A stretch of 54,215 bases of DNA, from NCBI GenBank assembly GCA_016933965.1, contig JAFGTS010000021.1, positions 1 through 54,215 of the forward strand, in the 5' to 3' direction. The DNA comes from Deltaproteobacteria bacterium (GTDB taxonomy: Bacteria; Desulfobacterota; Syntrophia; Syntrophales; UBA2210). The notes under the pieces are model-generated. The model searched no databases. It saw nothing but the letters and a program-made list of their open reading frames with translations, and was not told the DNA's origin. This document shows, in pieces, positions 4,250 to 50,362 of the stretch; position 1 is the stretch's first letter; each line of letters starts with the position of its first letter. The position numbers and the translations under genes are program-made.

Positions 4250-5626
4250 TCAGAAATGCTTCAGGGGCGGCTTTCCAATGGGAAACACATTGTATCCGAT
4301 CTCAAACAGCTTCCTGTGATCCAAAATATTCCGCCCGTCAAAGACGAAGGCGGGCTTGTTCATTACCCCGTATATTCTCTCGTAGTCAAGTTCTTTAAAG
4401 AGGTCCCACTCGGTGACGAGGGCCAGGGCGTCGCATCCGGCCGCGGCTTCGTAGGGGTCGGCCTCGAACTCCACCGTCCCGGCCGTGCCGGCAAGGTCCT
4501 TCCCGGCATTCCTCAGCGCCTTCGGGTCGGTGATGACCAGACGGGCCCGTTCCTCGATCAACCGTTTCGCGATGTGAATAGCGGGACTCTCCCGGGTGTC
4601 GCCGGTGTTCGCCTTGAAGGCGAACCCCATGAGACAGATACGCTTACCCGCCAGTGTGTCGAACATGGCATTGAGTATGCCCCGAACGAAGCGTTCTTTC
4701 TGGTATTCGTTGATGGCCACTACGCTTTCCCAGTAATCGGCGACCTCATCGAGTCCGTAATGGCGGCACAGATAAACCAGGCTGAGGACATCCTTCTTGA
4801 AGCAGGACCCACCGAAACCGACGCCGGCGTTCAGGAATCTGCCGCCGATCCGGTGGTCCATTCCCACTGCCCGGGCCACCTCCGTAATGTCGGCCTCCGT
4901 TTTCTCACAGAGCGCCGTGAAGGCGTTGATCGATGAAACCCGCTGGGCCAGAAAGGCGTTCGCCACCAGTTTCGACAGCTCACTGCTCCAGATATTCGTG
5001 GTGAGGATCTTCTCCCGGGGGACCCAGTTAAGAAAGATATCCATCAGTTCATCACGGGCCTTGAGCCCCCGGGGTGTCTCGCGGGAACCGATCAGGACCC
5101 TGTCGGGCTCCATAAGGTCACGGATCGCCGTCCCCTCGGCGAGGAATTCGGGATTGGACAGGACATCGAAATGATATTCCGTTCCCGTTGCCGAAAGGAT
5201 CCGCTCCATGGCAAAGGCCGTCTTGACGGGAAAGGTGCTCTTTTCAATGATGATCTTGTCCGATCCGGCATGTTCGCGGATCTGCCGGGCCGTTTTCTCC
5301 CAGAACTGGAGATCGGCGGCCATGCCCGCACCGGTACCGAAGCTCTTTGTCGGTGTATTGACACTGACAAAAATGATCTCCGATTCCCTGATACCTGCCG
5401 CGATATCGTCGGAGAAAAAGAGGTTCTTTCCCCGTGTCGCCCGCACTATTTCATCGAGTCCCGGTTCGAAGATGGGCAGTTCGTCGGAATTCCACTGGTC
5501 GATCCGCTCCTTGTTGACATCGACGACGGTCACCTTGTGCCGGGGACACTGATGGGCGATCACGGCCATCGTGGGGCCTCCCACATAGCCGGCGCCGATA
5601 CAGAGGATATGTTTTTCAAAACTCAT
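4250..5626 (-). CDS. ugd: UDP-glucose 6-dehydrogenase, animal-type
   Basis: This 458-residue enzyme oxidises UDP-glucose to UDP-glucuronate with two NAD+. It has the Rossmann loop GAGYVGGPT at residues 11-19, 'SNPEFLAEGTAI' near 158, and the catalytic cysteine motif GFGGSCFKKD with Cys275. The C-terminal UDP-binding half includes 'GFAFKANTGDTRES'. The wording of the catalytic motif (FGGSCFKKDVLSLVYLC) and the length are close to the eukaryotic UGDH subgroup rather than the shorter E. coli Ugd. The start overlaps the end of the epimerase gene by 11 bp. Together the two genes make UDP-glucuronate and UDP-galacturonate for the surrounding glycosyltransferases. Confidence 0.95.
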   Translation of the reverse strand: MSFEKHILCIGAGYVGGPTMAVIAHQCPRHKVTVVDVNKERIDQWNSDELPIFEPGLDEIVRATRGKNLFFSDDIAAGIRESEIIFVSVNTPTKSFGTGAGMAADLQFWEKTARQIREHAGSDKIIIEKSTFPVKTAFAMERILSATGTEYHFDVLSNPEFLAEGTAIRDLMEPDRVLIGSRETPRGLKARDELMDIFLNWVPREKILTTNIWSSELSKLVANAFLAQRVSSINAFTALCEKTEADITEVARAVGMDHRIGGRFLNAGVGFGGSCFKKDVLSLVYLCRHYGLDEVADYWESVVAINEYQKERFVRGILNAMFDTLAGKRICLMGFAFKANTGDTRESPAIHIAKRLIEERARLVITDPKALRNAGKDLAGTAGTVEFEADPYEAAAGCDALALVTEWDLFKELDYERIYGVMNKPAFVFDGRNILDHRKLFEIGYNVFPIGKPPLKHF

Positions 5627-44933: not shown

Positions 44934-46295
44934 TCACTTGAAGCCGTATTTCTTCAATTTGTACCGCAGTGCCCGCTCCGTTATCCCCAGGATACGGGCC
45001 GCCCGTGACTGGTTGTCCCCCGCCTCATCGAGGGCACGGCGGATCATGGCGTGTTCAAGCCGTTCGATGGAATCCTTCAGGGTGTCCCCCCGGCGGCCCC
45101 GTTCCGGGCCTCGTGTCCGTATCTCGGTAAAGGGGAGGTCCTGTATGGAAATGATGGGGTCCCGGGCTATCACCGCGGCCCGTTCGATGATATTTTCCAG
45201 TTCCCGCACGTTGCCGGGATAATCGTACTTGAGCAGCAGGTCCATTGCTTCGCTGCTGATCCCCTGGATCTCCTTTTCGTTCTCGGAAGAAAAGCGGTCG
45301 ATGAAGTGCTCTACAAGGAGGGGGATATCCTCTTTGCGCTCGCGCAGGGGCGGGATATCCATGACCACGACGTTGAGACGATAGAAAAGGTCGTCCCGGA
45401 ACGTGCCGCTTTTCACCCGTTCCTCGAGGTTACGGTTTGTGGCGGAAATGATCCGCACATCGGACCTGATCGTCTGATTTCCACCCAGGCGCTGGAACTC
45501 CCGTTCCTGGAGAAACCGCAGCAACTTCACCTGCACCGGCTGCGAAAGTTCCCCGACTTCATCGAGAAAGAGCGAACCGCCGTCGGCTTCCTCGAATCTC
45601 CCGATGCGCCGGTGTGCGGCCCCCGTGAAGGCCCCCCTTTCATGACCGAAGAGCTCGCTTTCGAGGAGCGTTTCCGGGAGGGCGCTGCAGTTGACCACCA
45701 TGAGGGGTTTCCCCGAACGGGGGCTCGTGGCATGAATCAGACGCGCGAACAACTCCTTTCCCGTTCCGCTCTCGCCCTGGATCAGGACGGTCGCGCGGCT
45801 CGAAGCTATCCGCCCGGCCATGTTGACCAGTTCCTGCATCCGGGGACTCTCATAGATGATCCGGTCCGTGAAAAGTCCCTTCTTCCAGAGTTTCTCCCGA
45901 AGGATCTCGTTTTCCCTGACGAGAACGCGCCGTTCCGAAATGCGGTTGATCAGGATCAGGAGCTCCTCGAGATCAACGGGCTTGGTAATATAGTCAACGG
46001 CCCCCGCTTTCATGGCATCCACGGCCGTTTCGATGGTCCCGTACGCCGTCATCATCACGATGTCGATCTCCGGATTGATGCCCTTGACCTTCCTGAGCAC
46101 TCCCAGGCCGTCGAGGCCCGGCATTTTATAATCAAGGAGGATCAGATCGAAATGGCCGTCCATGATCCGGCTCACCGCCTCATCCCCGCTTCCGGCCTCC
46201 GCAACGTCATGGCCTTCCTGTTCGAGAAAATCACGCAGCATTTCCCGTTGCGTCTCGCCGTCTTCCGCTATCAGAATGTTCAACCGTTTCGCCAT
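44934..46295 (-). CDS. sigma54-dependent response regulator (NtrC/ZraR family)
   Basis: ATG 46295 (MAKRLNILIAEDGETQREML). The 453-residue protein has a receiver domain with phospho-acceptor Asp55 (LILLDYKMPG). A sigma54-interacting AAA+ domain follows with Walker A GESGTGKE near 170, the sigma54-contact loop ERGAFTGA near 230 and DVRIISATNRNL. The C-terminus is a Fis-type helix-turn-helix (NQSRAARILGITERALRYKL). It activates sigma54 promoters when phosphorylated by the adjacent kinase, whose gene ends 23 bp upstream. The sigma54 promoter at 48852 is the only near-consensus one I found in the window. Confidence 0.97.
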   Translation of the reverse strand: MAKRLNILIAEDGETQREMLRDFLEQEGHDVAEAGSGDEAVSRIMDGHFDLILLDYKMPGLDGLGVLRKVKGINPEIDIVMMTAYGTIETAVDAMKAGAVDYITKPVDLEELLILINRISERRVLVRENEILREKLWKKGLFTDRIIYESPRMQELVNMAGRIASSRATVLIQGESGTGKELFARLIHATSPRSGKPLMVVNCSALPETLLESELFGHERGAFTGAAHRRIGRFEEADGGSLFLDEVGELSQPVQVKLLRFLQEREFQRLGGNQTIRSDVRIISATNRNLEERVKSGTFRDDLFYRLNVVVMDIPPLRERKEDIPLLVEHFIDRFSSENEKEIQGISSEAMDLLLKYDYPGNVRELENIIERAAVIARDPIISIQDLPFTEIRTRGPERGRRGDTLKDSIERLEHAMIRRALDEAGDNQSRAARILGITERALRYKLKKYGFK

Positions 46296-46318
46296 AGGGA
46301 ATCCCCTTCCGAACAAAT

Positions 46319-48100
46319 TCACGCAGCCTGAACGGGCAGCAGGATCTCAACGGTCGTGCCCGCGTTAATGGCACTGGTTATCCTGATCTCTCCCTGGTGC
46401 CCGCGAATGATCTCGTGGGCCAGGGGCAGCCCCAGCCCCAGCCCTTTTTCCTTTGTCGTAAATTCCGGACTGAACGCCTTTTCGAGTTCCTCCGCCGTCA
46501 GCCCCGTTCCTGTATCCGATATCCTGATACGGACCCGATCCTTTCCGTCAGGCTCGATATTCACCGTTATCACGCCCTCACCGGGAATCGATTCCATGGC
46601 GTTCTTGAAGAGATTGAAGAGAGCCTGCTTCATCTTGTCCATGTCCATGGCGACCATGGCATTATCGTCGTTCATCTGGGTCCGTATGACGATCCCCCGA
46701 GTCTTCGCTTCATCCTCCATGAGATCGAGTGTCTTCTGGATGACAAAGGCGATGGAGTGATCGCTGAGCTCCAGGCGGCGGCTTTTGAAAAACGTGGCGA
46801 ATTCCTCGACGATGCCGTTCAGTCTCCTGATCTCATCACGAACGATTCCCGTGATCCGGTAAAATCCTTTTTGCCGGTCCTCGTCGCCGGGAACATACTC
46901 GCGCTGGATCCGCTGGCTGGCCATGCTGATCGCATTGAGGGGATTGCGGATCTCGTGGGCAAGCCCTGCCGCCAGTTGGCCCAGGGCCGAGAGGCGCTCC
47001 GCCTGCCGGAGCCGTGTTTCCATCTCCTCCACCCGCGCCGCGTGGCGTTTCTGATTTCGATAGAGGGCCCAAGTGGAAAGGACGCCGATCACCATGATGA
47101 ATATCATGGAAGTGATCATCCGGTTCCGGTTCTCGGCGAGGATCATGTCGCTCCGCTCCCGGTCAAGGCCCAAGCGCGCAAAGGCGACCATGCCGCCATC
47201 CTCGATGCTCAAGGGAAGGATAATCTCGAGCAACCGCCGGTCGCGGAAAAGGATCTTCCGGCTTGCCTTCGGCAGTTTTCCCGTCAGCACGTCAAGAGAC
47301 ACCGGATCAAGCACTTCCACATTCTCGGGAACGTCGCCGGCACGGCCGATGACCTTTCCCTGCCCGTCCATGACGAGCAGAAAGGAGAGACCCTGCCCCC
47401 ATCCCACTTCATCGATGGCCTTTCTGATGGCGATCTTCGTGCTCCAGTACCGAAGCCCCTTGTCATCAAGGGCGATAACGATCGTTCCACTCCCATCCTT
47501 TCGCCGCAGGGCAATATATCCCACTTCGTCAAGTTCTCCGAACCGGTTGAAGAGATTGATATTGACCTCGTCGCGGAGGATGTCCCCGCCAACGGCAGAG
47601 GAGGGCGCGATATCTTCCAGGAACTCCCGGCTCTTGAACAGTATTTTCCCTTCTTCGTCAAGAACGGCGATCAGCCAGAGATTCTCCCTCCTGGCGATCT
47701 CAATCAGGTCCTTTTCCTTCAGGAGTTCCTGTTTCCAGCGGAGATCGATCTCACGGGCGAGCGCCACGAGGTTCTTCACCAGGGATTCCTGCGGCGAAAA
47801 GGCCTTGTCACTGAGGGGGACAAAGGCGTCCTCGTCGCCCTGGTCCTCTTTCAGGGTTTGATAGAGATAGCTCAGGTTTTCCTTCGCCACGTTCTCGATG
47901 GTCGACACGATATCGATCCCCCGGTTCTCCATGATGCCCACCAGGGACTTGTCAAGGCGCCCCAGGTCCATGAGCCCCATGAACAATATGAGGATAATAA
48001 ATATCACCATGACCAGGGCCACCGTCAGGGGCTGCAGCAGATTTTTCATCCGCCCCGGCGATTCCCCGTCACGGAATACTATGTTCCGGTCACCCTTCAT
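46319..48100 (-). CDS. membrane sensor histidine kinase (ZraS-like)
   Basis: ATG 48100 (MKGDRNIVFRDGESPGRMKN) overlaps the stop of the ZraP-like gene as ATGA. The 593-residue protein has a membrane helix near 25-45, a ~270-residue periplasmic sensor, a second helix (MITSMIFIMVIGVLSTWAL) and a HisKA domain with the phospho-His in 'AAGLAHEIRNPLNAISMASQ'. The HATPase domain has DTGTGLTAEELEKAF and 'TKEKGLGLGLPLAHEIIRGH'. It would phosphorylate the response regulator encoded 23 bp downstream. The order periplasmic protein, kinase, sigma54 regulator mirrors ZraP-ZraS-ZraR. Confidence 0.96.
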   Translation of the reverse strand: MKGDRNIVFRDGESPGRMKNLLQPLTVALVMVIFIILILFMGLMDLGRLDKSLVGIMENRGIDIVSTIENVAKENLSYLYQTLKEDQGDEDAFVPLSDKAFSPQESLVKNLVALAREIDLRWKQELLKEKDLIEIARRENLWLIAVLDEEGKILFKSREFLEDIAPSSAVGGDILRDEVNINLFNRFGELDEVGYIALRRKDGSGTIVIALDDKGLRYWSTKIAIRKAIDEVGWGQGLSFLLVMDGQGKVIGRAGDVPENVEVLDPVSLDVLTGKLPKASRKILFRDRRLLEIILPLSIEDGGMVAFARLGLDRERSDMILAENRNRMITSMIFIMVIGVLSTWALYRNQKRHAARVEEMETRLRQAERLSALGQLAAGLAHEIRNPLNAISMASQRIQREYVPGDEDRQKGFYRITGIVRDEIRRLNGIVEEFATFFKSRRLELSDHSIAFVIQKTLDLMEDEAKTRGIVIRTQMNDDNAMVAMDMDKMKQALFNLFKNAMESIPGEGVITVNIEPDGKDRVRIRISDTGTGLTAEELEKAFSPEFTTKEKGLGLGLPLAHEIIRGHQGEIRITSAINAGTTVEILLPVQAA

Positions 48101-48540
48101 TTCCACTCCCTTTTCAGGGTGGAATCCTGATCGATACACCACACCCGTACCTGCTGGGGTGTCAATACATGTCTGATCTCGATCTGATACTCGAGGACCA
48201 ATTCCTCGAACCGCGCGTTCAGCAACTCGATGTCCCGACCTTTCTCCCGGATCGTTTCAACATCAGCGGCGGGATCGTTCAGAATCGCCGTCAGTTCTAT
48301 GCGTTTTGCCAGGAGCTGTTCCCGCAGGCAGAACAATTTTTCCCGATATTTCTCCCGCACGCATTCAATAGCCCTGCTTTGCTCGCTGCCCAGCTCCATC
48401 TCACCCAGGGGGACGCACTTTTTCTCGACAACTTTCGGATACTCCCGGGCGGCATCGCCCGTTGACTCCTGAGCACATAAAAAAGGGGGATACAAGAGAA
48501 AAAGAGAAAGAAAAATAACCGTCGTGATGATGTGTTTCAT
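48097..48540 (-). CDS. periplasmic ZraP/Spy/CpxP-like protein
   Basis: ATG 48540 (MKHIITTVIFLSLFLLYPPF) starts a signal peptide cleaved near LCA. The 147-residue protein is then almost wholly helical: 'IECVREKYREKLFCLREQLL' and 'VETIREKGRDIELLNARFEE', with an LTPQQ turn near the C-terminus, the typical LTxxQ feature of the Spy/CpxP/ZraP family of periplasmic chaperone-like metal sensors. Four cysteines in the mature protein could bind metal or form disulfides. It overlaps the kinase start, so it is probably the accessory sensor of that system. Confidence 0.88.
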   Translation of the reverse strand: MKHIITTVIFLSLFLLYPPFLCAQESTGDAAREYPKVVEKKCVPLGEMELGSEQSRAIECVREKYREKLFCLREQLLAKRIELTAILNDPAADVETIREKGRDIELLNARFEELVLEYQIEIRHVLTPQQVRVWCIDQDSTLKREWK

Positions 48541-48671
48541 CGGAATGACCACCTGGAAAAGCCATGACGGCTCGGTTTTTGCGTGATCTTTTTTTGCAGG
48601 TACCATATCACACTTTGCTTAATTACAATAGGTTGAAAAAAGAGAGGATTATGCCACGAAGGGGAACGAGT

Positions 48672-48687
48672 TCGACAATTTTGTCGA
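48672..48687. promoter_or_regulatory. perfect 16-bp palindrome upstream of the two-component operon
   Basis: TCGACAATTTTGTCGA is fully self-complementary and lies 132 bp upstream of the ZraP-like start and about 180 bp upstream of the sigma54 promoter on the other strand. It is suitable as the binding site of the neighbouring Fis-type regulator, or of another dimeric repressor. Binding is not shown. Confidence 0.45.
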
Positions 48688-48851
48688 GCCTGCCGGGACT
48701 CTGTGGTAACCATGCAAGTATTTGCTATTATTGATATTAAAGCAAACCGACCGCACCGGTTCGACCTTTTTTTCCGGTATGTTCGGGGCGGCGGTCACGG
48801 TCCTGCCAATAAATAGCAGTCCTTTCAAATGGTTAATAAAATCATATACCC

Positions 48852-48867
48852 TGGCACGGATAATGCA
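48852..48867 (+). promoter_or_regulatory. sigma54 promoter, near-perfect consensus
   Basis: TGGCACG-GATA-ATGCA matches TGGCACG-N4-TTGCA in every fixed position except the first T of TTGCA, with exact -24/-12 spacing (GG 48853-48854, GC 48865-48866). Transcription should begin near 48878 on the plus strand, at the base of the first hairpin of the candidate RNA. Confidence 0.8.
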
Positions 48868-48877
48868 TCATTATATA

Positions 48878-49100
48878 ATGCCGTAAGCCAGAACCTTCCT
48901 CCTAAGTATCTGGCTTAAACCCGAGAGCCGGCCGATCATTCAAATTGTCTCCGCACGAACAGTGCGTGGAGCGGAAGATGTGAACGCCAGAACCAGCCGA
49001 CGAACAAACATGGAGTTCATATTCTTCTCCGACGGAACCGAATAAGGATGATTGGCCGGTTATAAAACCTCCAAGGGGAGGCTCAAAGCCTCCCCTTCCC
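48878..49100 (+). ncRNA. candidate sigma54-dependent structured small RNA
   Basis: From the predicted start to a strong hairpin at 49073-49097 there is no convincing ORF: the ATGs give 2, 1, 11 and 5 codons, and the longest open run has no ribosome site. Helices seen are as follows. H1 is UAAGCCAGA (48884-48892) with UCUGGCUUA (48909-48917), 9 bp perfect, and its loop carries CCUUCCUCCU. A closing helix pairs 48926-48941 with 49046-49061, 16 bp with three wobbles. Inside it lie CUCCGCAC/GUGC-GU-GGAG (48949-48971) and a ~12-bp stem pairing 48974-48985 with 49015-49027 (one bulge). The CCUCCU loop complements a Shine-Dalgarno sequence, suggesting an mRNA-binding role. GCCAGAACC occurs twice (48886-48894 and 48986-48994), so H1 could rearrange. 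Confidence 0.62.
49073..49097 (+). terminator. terminator-like hairpin of the candidate RNA
   Basis: AAGGGGAGGC-TCAAA-GCCTCCCCTT is a perfect 10-bp stem with a 5-base loop. The following CCCTGTTTCTG is only weakly U-rich. It separates the sigma54 transcript from the nitronate monooxygenase gene, which has its own promoter. Confidence 0.6.
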
Positions 49101-49309: not shown

Positions 49310-50362
49310 ATGAAAACGAGGATCACAGAGAGTTTCGGCATTAAATATCCTATCATGCTCTCCGGTATGAGCTGGATCAGTGTGCCGGAAATGGTGGCCG
49401 CCGTGTCCAACGCGGGCGGTCTGGGCCTCCTGGCGACAGGAGTGTTAAAAGCAAATGAAACGCGTGAGGCTATCAAGAAAATACGAAAGCTGACCGACAA
49501 GCCTTTCGGTGCTAACGCCACCCTTCTCTTTCCCGGTGCCAAAGAAAACGCCAAGATCCTTCTGGAGGAAAAAGTGCCGGTGATCAATTTTTCCCTCGGC
49601 AAGGGGGACTGGATCGCCGAGGCGGCCCATAAATACGGCGGAAAGGTGATCGCTACCGTCGTCACCGAAAAACATGCCATGGCCGCGGAGAAACAGGGTT
49701 GTGACGGTCTTGTCGTAACGGGCCATGAAGCGGCGGCTCACGGAGGCGATGCCACATCGCTCGTCCTGGTTCCCACCATTGCCGATGTGGTCAATATCCC
49801 CATAATCGCCGCCGGCGGTTTTGCCGATGGAAGGGGACTGGCTGCGGCCCTTGCCCTGGGTGCCGACGGGATCTCCATGGGAACCCGGCTGATGTCGACG
49901 AAGGAAAGCCCCCTGCATGAAAACTACAAAAAGCTTGCCGTTGAAAAGGGAGCCGACGACACCATTTACGGTCCCTATTTCGATGGACTCGGGTGTCGTT
50001 CACTGAAAACACCGGCAGCGATCAAGGCATACCGGAAGGGGCCCCTCGGCCTGCCGAATTTCTTCACCGCGCTGCCGAATTCGAAGCGGATCGCATCGAT
50101 GCTCGGGTTACCCTACTTAAAGGTTTTCCTGGGTATCCTTTTCGCCGGCCCGAAGATCAGCATCCAGCTTGCCTACATGGCGAACGCCTTCAAGGCGATC
50201 TCCCTGGCCACCGAGGACGGCGACATAAAGAGAGGTGTCCTTACCGTCGGGCAGTCCACGGGACTCGTTCACGACATCCCCACCGTGGCGGAAGTCATCG
50301 AGCGGGTCGTCAAGGAAGCCGAAGAAGTGCAGGCGAAGGTATCGAAAACGATCACCGCCTAA
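49310..50362 (+). CDS. nitronate monooxygenase family FMN enzyme
   Basis: ATG 49310 (MKTRITESFGIKYPIMLSGM) follows AAAAAAGGAGA; the longer frame from 49184 covers the promoter. The 350-residue TIM-barrel protein has 'MVAAVSNAGGLGLLATG', 'GCDGLVVTGHEAAAHGGDAT' (the His region of the family active site) and FMN-phosphate loops 'IPIIAAGGFADGRGLAAALA' and 'LGADGISMGTRLMSTKES'. It resembles 2-nitropropane dioxygenase/nitronate monooxygenases and FabK-like enoyl reductases; in strict anaerobes the true reaction may be a reduction. It is followed by an intrinsic terminator. Confidence 0.93.
   Translation: MKTRITESFGIKYPIMLSGMSWISVPEMVAAVSNAGGLGLLATGVLKANETREAIKKIRKLTDKPFGANATLLFPGAKENAKILLEEKVPVINFSLGKGDWIAEAAHKYGGKVIATVVTEKHAMAAEKQGCDGLVVTGHEAAAHGGDATSLVLVPTIADVVNIPIIAAGGFADGRGLAAALALGADGISMGTRLMSTKESPLHENYKKLAVEKGADDTIYGPYFDGLGCRSLKTPAAIKAYRKGPLGLPNFFTALPNSKRIASMLGLPYLKVFLGILFAGPKISIQLAYMANAFKAISLATEDGDIKRGVLTVGQSTGLVHDIPTVAEVIERVVKEAEEVQAKVSKTITA

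Follow-up and report, generated by a model that had tools for sequence, protein, structure and literature searches.

The stretch of DNA analysed here (hereafter the window, 54,215 nucleotides) carries a two-component operon on the reverse strand and, divergent from it, a predicted small RNA gene (Table 1). The operon encodes a sensor histidine kinase, a ZraP/Spy-like periplasmic protein and a response regulator in which receiver, sigma54-activation and Fis-type helix-turn-helix domains were recognized (Pfam, NCBIfam). Matches to ZraP, ZraS and ZraR were all obtained, each below the curated equivalog cut-off, and the system is therefore called here only ZraSR-like; a homologue of the ZraP/Spy-like protein at another locus (L007) scores above the Pfam cut-off. 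In 28 of the 30 loci inspected the regulator gene adjoins the kinase gene on the same strand, and outside the window genome the regulators of these loci show 66-75% identity. An earlier note on this DNA had placed a divergent kinase and a sigma54 activator next to the RNA; both were found, with the refinement that the ZraP/Spy-like gene sits between the kinase and the RNA. Downstream of the RNA lies a nitronate monooxygenase-like gene (49310-50362), which is syntenic in several family genomes; in genus g5 (L056) a squalene/phytoene-synthase-like gene was read in its place. The RNA tracks the ZraSR-like operon, and the downstream gene varies while the RNA persists.

Table 1. Features of the locus, with positions in the window
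Feature	Position	Strand	Basis
NtrC-type response regulator, AtoC/ZraR-like, proposed activator	44934..46322	-	Pfam, NCBIfam
Sensor histidine kinase with N-terminal sensor region, AtoS/ZraS-like	46319..48142	-	Pfam, NCBIfam
ZraP/Spy-like periplasmic protein	48097..48606	-	Weak Metal_resist/ZraP match, below curated cut-offs
Upstream site 1, palindrome TCGACAATTTTGTCGA	48672..48687	.	Sole exact copy in its genome
Upstream site 2, degenerate half-site TTCGACCTTTTTTTCC	48760..48775	+	Sequence; relatives have equivalents, e.g. TCGACATTTnTTnCC
sigma54 promoter -24/-12, TGGCACGgataATGC	48852..48866	+	Read directly; upstream of all 24 intact family members
Small RNA, ~220 nt, apparently non-coding	48878..49100	+	Fold, homologues, no Rfam family, no conserved ORF
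Hairpin 1 with anti-Shine-Dalgarno loop CCUUCCUCCU (loop motif 48894-48903)	48884..48917	+	
Linker AACCC, end of family-conserved motif GGCUUAAACCC	48918..48922	+	Alignments
Long-range helix with variable insert	48926..49061	+	Fold, relatives, order-wide core covariation
Second CU-rich motif AAAACCUCC, 5' of terminator	49064..49072	+	Sequence and relatives
Terminator-like hairpin	49073..49097	+	11 pairs; weak T tract in window

The promoter and the RNA unit

The strong sigma54 promoter claimed earlier was read directly, the same type of box precedes every intact homologue, and its position predicts an RNA start at about 48878. The pattern TGGCAYN5WTGC is matched twice in the 54-kb window against 0.33 matches expected, the other match being TGGCATTGAGTATGC at 4666-4680. 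Sigma70-like hexamers (CTGGCA-17-TATAAT, 48851-48879) overlap the sigma54 box and in our scan were not clearly above chance; overlapping sigma70 and sigma54 promoters have likewise been reported for glmY. A covariance model of hairpin 1 alone (R2), in which no promoter is included, gave 14 matches inside family f1, all 14 with a sigma54 box just upstream, and five outside it, none of them with such a box (Fisher p 9e-5 for these counts). The patterns that recovered the remaining family members contain the promoter or the site upstream of it, and hence these members are not independent tests of the promoter.

The whole RNA folds with a minimum free energy of -90.5 kcal/mol (z -6.3), and none of 200 shuffled sequences did equally well. 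Hairpin 1 has the 9-bp stem and the 16-nt loop that had been described, its arms being UAAGCCAGA (48884-48892) and UCUGGCUUA (48909-48917) and its loop ACCUUCCUCCUAAGUA (48893-48908). The long-range helix of 16 bp, formed by arms at approximately 48926-48941 and 49046-49061, does enclose two further stems, with the qualification that this insert is not conserved among the relatives; the 3' strand of the helix, GATGATTGGCCGG (49047-49059), is similar to the core of the order-wide RNA discussed below. The terminator-like hairpin is present as well, with one pair more than the 10 bp noted earlier, and T runs follow it in most of the relatives.

In an alignment of 20 family sequences, which was fitted to the model structure and thus favours it, the covariation of hairpin 1 was 0.362 versus 0.198 ± 0.021 in shuffled alignments, with all 500 shuffles scoring lower, while slid versions of the hairpin reached no more than 0.185; 87% of its pairs were standard. 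The loop core CUCC is constant in all 24 intact members while the stems of hairpin 1 vary, and it is fully unpaired in 15 of the 24 minimum-energy folds, which makes exposure of the loop likely, if not uniform.

The view that no convincing ORF fits the segment held up in the comparison of the intact family members, since no reading frame is common to them; an ORF of at least 15 codons preceded by a Shine-Dalgarno sequence occurs in only two homologues. The covariance-model search of the window RNA against Rfam 15, a check that had been proposed, returned no family at curated thresholds, and the permissive search of the window segment gave only sraA (17.3 bits against a threshold of 56); for the other loci only sub-threshold matches to Rfam were obtained. 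The RNA segment has no second copy in its genome, and so it is not the multi-copy mobile repeat that had been considered. Judged from sequence, the segment is a conserved, structured and apparently non-coding RNA unit.

Copies in the family and their upstream sites

Relatives inside family f1 were found by BLASTN, by a pattern and by the hairpin 1 covariance model, and the set was completed with a promoter-plus-loop pattern and the upstream palindrome. All 19 family genomes searched have a homologue; 24 of the copies are intact and one more is broken; matches at L021, L024, L049, L051, L052, L054, L058 and L059-L061 were dismissed as due to chance. Fifteen copies stand beside the kinase (type 1), and seven intact copies occupy another locus, adjoining other genes and preceded by the same upstream sites (type 2). 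In an eighth type 2 copy, in G013 (L088, ~1500-1830, G013:C151), a deletion has removed the -12 element, the 5' arm of hairpin 1 and what lies between them; either this sRNA gene is broken or the assembly is faulty. Two type 3 copies, L067 (G006:C199) and L068 (G009:C190), consist of a type-2-like RNA without the palindrome; they have a different upstream repeat, CAATATGTTGAGG and AAATATTGAGG, perhaps serving another activator. In G017 there is no unit beside the kinase, and the sole copy is of type 2, elsewhere in the genome.

Activator-type sites, as judged by sequence, lie upstream of an RNA gene that is linked to the gene of an NtrC-type regulator. The palindrome has the form TCGACA-N4-TGTCGA and is situated ~180 bp 5' of the sigma54 box in the window and 160-220 bp upstream of it in the relatives. 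With up to one mismatch allowed, the 19 family genomes contain 30 such sites versus one for the reversed control. Of the 30, 21 belong to type 1 or type 2 sRNA loci, and every one of the 12 exact copies is among these 21. Seven of the other nine are inside long reading frames, the last two being L096 and L100; at L096 (G006:C101:4106-4121) a one-mismatch palindrome is followed after ~40 bp by an ATG that has a strong Shine-Dalgarno sequence, possibly marking another target of the regulator. The kinase loci that lack the palindrome (L111, L122 and L126) lack the sigma54 box too. Because the same sites precede the unlinked sRNA locus, they are the best evidence that one regulator would serve both the linked and the unlinked loci, and the proposed control by the neighbouring two-component system is strengthened by their conservation, also in front of unlinked paralogues.

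Distribution in Syntrophales and beyond

Of the 154 genomes of the order, 142 gave a match to the kinase sensor region. Outside f1, the DNA opposite the kinase was read at 61 loci, two of which ended at contig ends. Of the 59 readable loci, 55 had an RNA-like unit; an intact -24/-12 box precedes 52 of these units, and in G038 and G039 the box has an altered -12 element. These loci were picked by their kinase, and whichever box scored best was accepted as the promoter, so that the counts outside f1 are not blind. The unit of G028 was found by the model R3 with 50 bits. No RNA unit was found opposite the kinase in G029, G019 and G143, and in G114 (L154, family f18), a member of the order, a Spy-like gene (Pfam Metal_resist, LTXXQ) takes the place of the RNA behind the promoter. 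Forty-five of the 55 loci with an RNA-like unit have a strict palindrome 160-220 bp upstream, mostly at 189-196 bp. A terminator-like hairpin follows 52 of the 55 units with the chosen box versus 63 of 132 control stretches.

The usual form in the order is 110-150 nt long. A core hairpin, whose loop resembles AACGGGCAUGAU, comes first; it is followed by a small hairpin, then by a CU-rich linker that in many cases reads CUCCUCCUGA, and finally by the terminator. The GGGCA of the loop is strongly conserved across the order. In 41 sequences the covariation of the core hairpin was 0.401 versus 0.283 ± 0.015 in shuffled alignments, again above every one of 500 shuffles, and at most 0.146 in slid versions; the covariance check suggested in the earlier note has thus yielded compensatory changes both in hairpin 1 and in this order-wide core. 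In f1 and f20 an additional 5' hairpin bears the anti-Shine-Dalgarno motif in its loop; outside these two families it is the linker, and no hairpin loop, that holds the CU-rich motif, which in f12 usually reads CUCUUC. Pairing of the order-wide loop CGGGCAUGAU with a start codon was considered and rejected, as f11, f13 and f19 do not retain the AUG complement, and in a search for partners of CGGGCAUGAU only the RNA gene itself stood out. With the order-wide model, the window RNA is the best match in the 54 kb (E 3e-4), at only 22 bits which fall mostly in the terminator, and for this reason the homology of the f1 form and the order-wide form is argued mainly from the locus, the sites, the promoter architecture and a short core. 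BLAST matches in f15 that are limited to the terminator lie opposite the same type of kinase.

The association of the RNA with the kinase across the order bears on the possibility that the segment serves the nitronate monooxygenase-like gene as a 5' leader or attenuator and yields no free sRNA. Several family genomes do have that gene next to the RNA and pointing the same way; however, a terminator-like hairpin separates it from the RNA, its place is taken by the squalene/phytoene-synthase-like gene in g5, and the type 2 copies are beside other genes, and we regard a leader function as very improbable.

Among 395 genomes of the phylum, 11 contained the site-plus-promoter pattern (none for the reversed control), and five of these 11 genomes come from outside the order. 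There, the promoter precedes a gene for a Metal_resist/LTXXQ (Spy-like) protein above the Pfam cut-off in G317, G255 and G459, the same kinase type adjoining the Spy-like gene in the last of them; a Spy-like fragment below the cut-off is found behind the promoter in G424, and other genes at a second place in G317 and in G439. The loci with the palindrome and the sigma54 box before protein genes are L136, L147 (G317:C433), L137, L138 and L146, and the two palindrome-plus-sigma54 units of G317 are ~5 kb apart.

These sequence comparisons suggest that the output is a protein in the relatives and an RNA in this order. We tentatively suppose, while considering it somewhat less than an even chance, that in the ancestor of the order the output of a ZraSR-like system may have been rewired, behind unchanged activator sites and promoter, from a Spy-like protein to an Hfq-independent anti-Shine-Dalgarno sRNA, which would later have been duplicated to give the unlinked siblings. 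That Spy-like genes stand behind the same sites and promoter in G114 and in genomes outside the order could also mean that the segment encodes a small protein or is what decay has left of a Spy-like gene. The homologues, however, share no ORF and only two of them have a Shine-Dalgarno-preceded one of at least 15 codons, the helices covary, and the locus already has its Spy-like gene, on the other side, which leaves this explanation hardly any probability.

Proposed function, known systems and significance

The reading we favour, with a probability of about 0.72, is that the unit is the gene of a trans-acting sRNA that would serve as a dedicated sigma54-dependent output of the neighbouring ZraSR-like system. 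An envelope-type stress signal would activate the kinase; the phosphorylated NtrC-type regulator would bind the palindrome (~180 bp) and the half-site (~90 bp) upstream; and the sigma54 polymerase would produce a structured RNA of 110-230 nt ending at the intrinsic terminator. The CUCC(U) loop of hairpin 1 could then pair with the Shine-Dalgarno sequences of target mRNAs and block their translation, and the second CU-rich motif before the terminator may often do the same. Hfq was found in none of the 19 family genomes (the control genomes were positive), and target pairing would proceed without it. The sRNA probably acts on Shine-Dalgarno sequences without Hfq; the pairing step is proposed by analogy with NfeR1 (PMC10746234) and CJnc230 (PMC11187230). 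Our inferences are that this regulator is the one which activates the promoter, what kind of signal is sensed, in which direction the system regulates, how the RNA pairs and what its targets are.

What varies least in hairpin 1 is the short and generic CUCC(U), and many copies have a second motif of the anti-Shine-Dalgarno type, as would be expected if the RNA broadly damped translation initiation with no defined set of targets. This we consider unlikely, as the family also conserves the GGCUUAAACCC strand, and the order the GGGCA loop, suggesting specific partners. The strong conservation of the same loop, together with the failure to find Hfq in the 19 family genomes, might instead point to a protein bound by the conserved loops and sequestered by the RNA, after the manner of CrcZ or CsrB; yet there is no array of repeated sites, and the motif fixed in the family is a complement of the Shine-Dalgarno sequence, and sequestration seems to us improbable, even more so than general damping.

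Several known systems resemble the sRNA output proposed here for the ZraSR-like system. The ZraP-ZraSR system likewise combines a kinase, a sigma54-type regulator and a Spy-like periplasmic protein; its output is the ZraP protein, whereas here an RNA follows the sigma54 promoter and the Spy-like gene is on the other side. In Vibrio, LuxO and the Qrr sRNAs exemplify sigma54/NtrC-type control of sibling sRNAs, and the comparison with Qrr made in the earlier note is fair as to regulatory logic; the Qrr sRNAs differ in structure and sequence, depend on Hfq and respond to quorum sensing. GlmY beside qseEGF is a closer parallel, because there the sRNA gene adjoins its own operon of a kinase, an envelope protein and a sigma54 regulator. 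In Enterobacteriaceae, GlmY is encoded beside the QseE/QseG/QseF (GlrK/GlrR) operon in conserved synteny, and glmY has a sigma54 promoter with several upstream activating sites (PMC6075780); the RNA acts as a decoy for RapZ (PMC7073468). The likeness extends to the neighbouring operon with an NtrC-type regulator, the sigma54 promoter and the upstream sites. On the other hand, glmY is located upstream of the operon, its sites are of the form TGTN12ACA and its sequence and structure are different, while the Syntrophales RNA gene is divergent, has anti-Shine-Dalgarno motifs and occurs where Hfq was not found.

Pxr of myxobacteria has three stem-loops, a predicted sigma54 promoter and an upstream enhancer region, with the regulator gene pxrR immediately 5' of it (PMC5684412); the resemblance to our RNA is one of description, Pxr has a developmental role, and in the parts of that source consulted no anti-Shine-Dalgarno motif is described. 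In NfeR1 (alpha-r14) of Sinorhizobium, three hairpins with differing stems expose an identical anti-Shine-Dalgarno motif, CCUCCUCCC, and the RNA base-pairs at translation starts, that of ntrB among them (PMC10746234). By sequence, the alpha-r14-like trait, a conserved CUCC core with variable, covarying stems, is present here; NfeR1, however, is activated by LsrB, repressed by NtrC and not driven by sigma54, and has another structure and lineage. CJnc230 (FlmE) of Campylobacter jejuni is an RpoN-dependent sRNA that represses mRNAs and has a putative anti-Shine-Dalgarno motif (PMC11187230), but it is processed from the flgE mRNA and comes from an unrelated locus.

Sigma54-dependent sRNAs under two-component control are thus a kind already known. 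Our literature search found no described equivalent of the present sRNA family and no sRNA work for Syntrophus aciditrophicus, and the best reading is that the family, absent from Rfam and apparently undescribed in the literature searched, is new. It would add an order-wide sRNA family in anaerobes with little-studied post-transcriptional control, including a candidate base-pairing sRNA in bacteria where Hfq was not found. It would also offer a comparative case in which one kind of stress promoter yields a protein in some lineages and an RNA in others, and the combination of sites, promoter and RNA would be specific enough for regulon prediction in other genomes.
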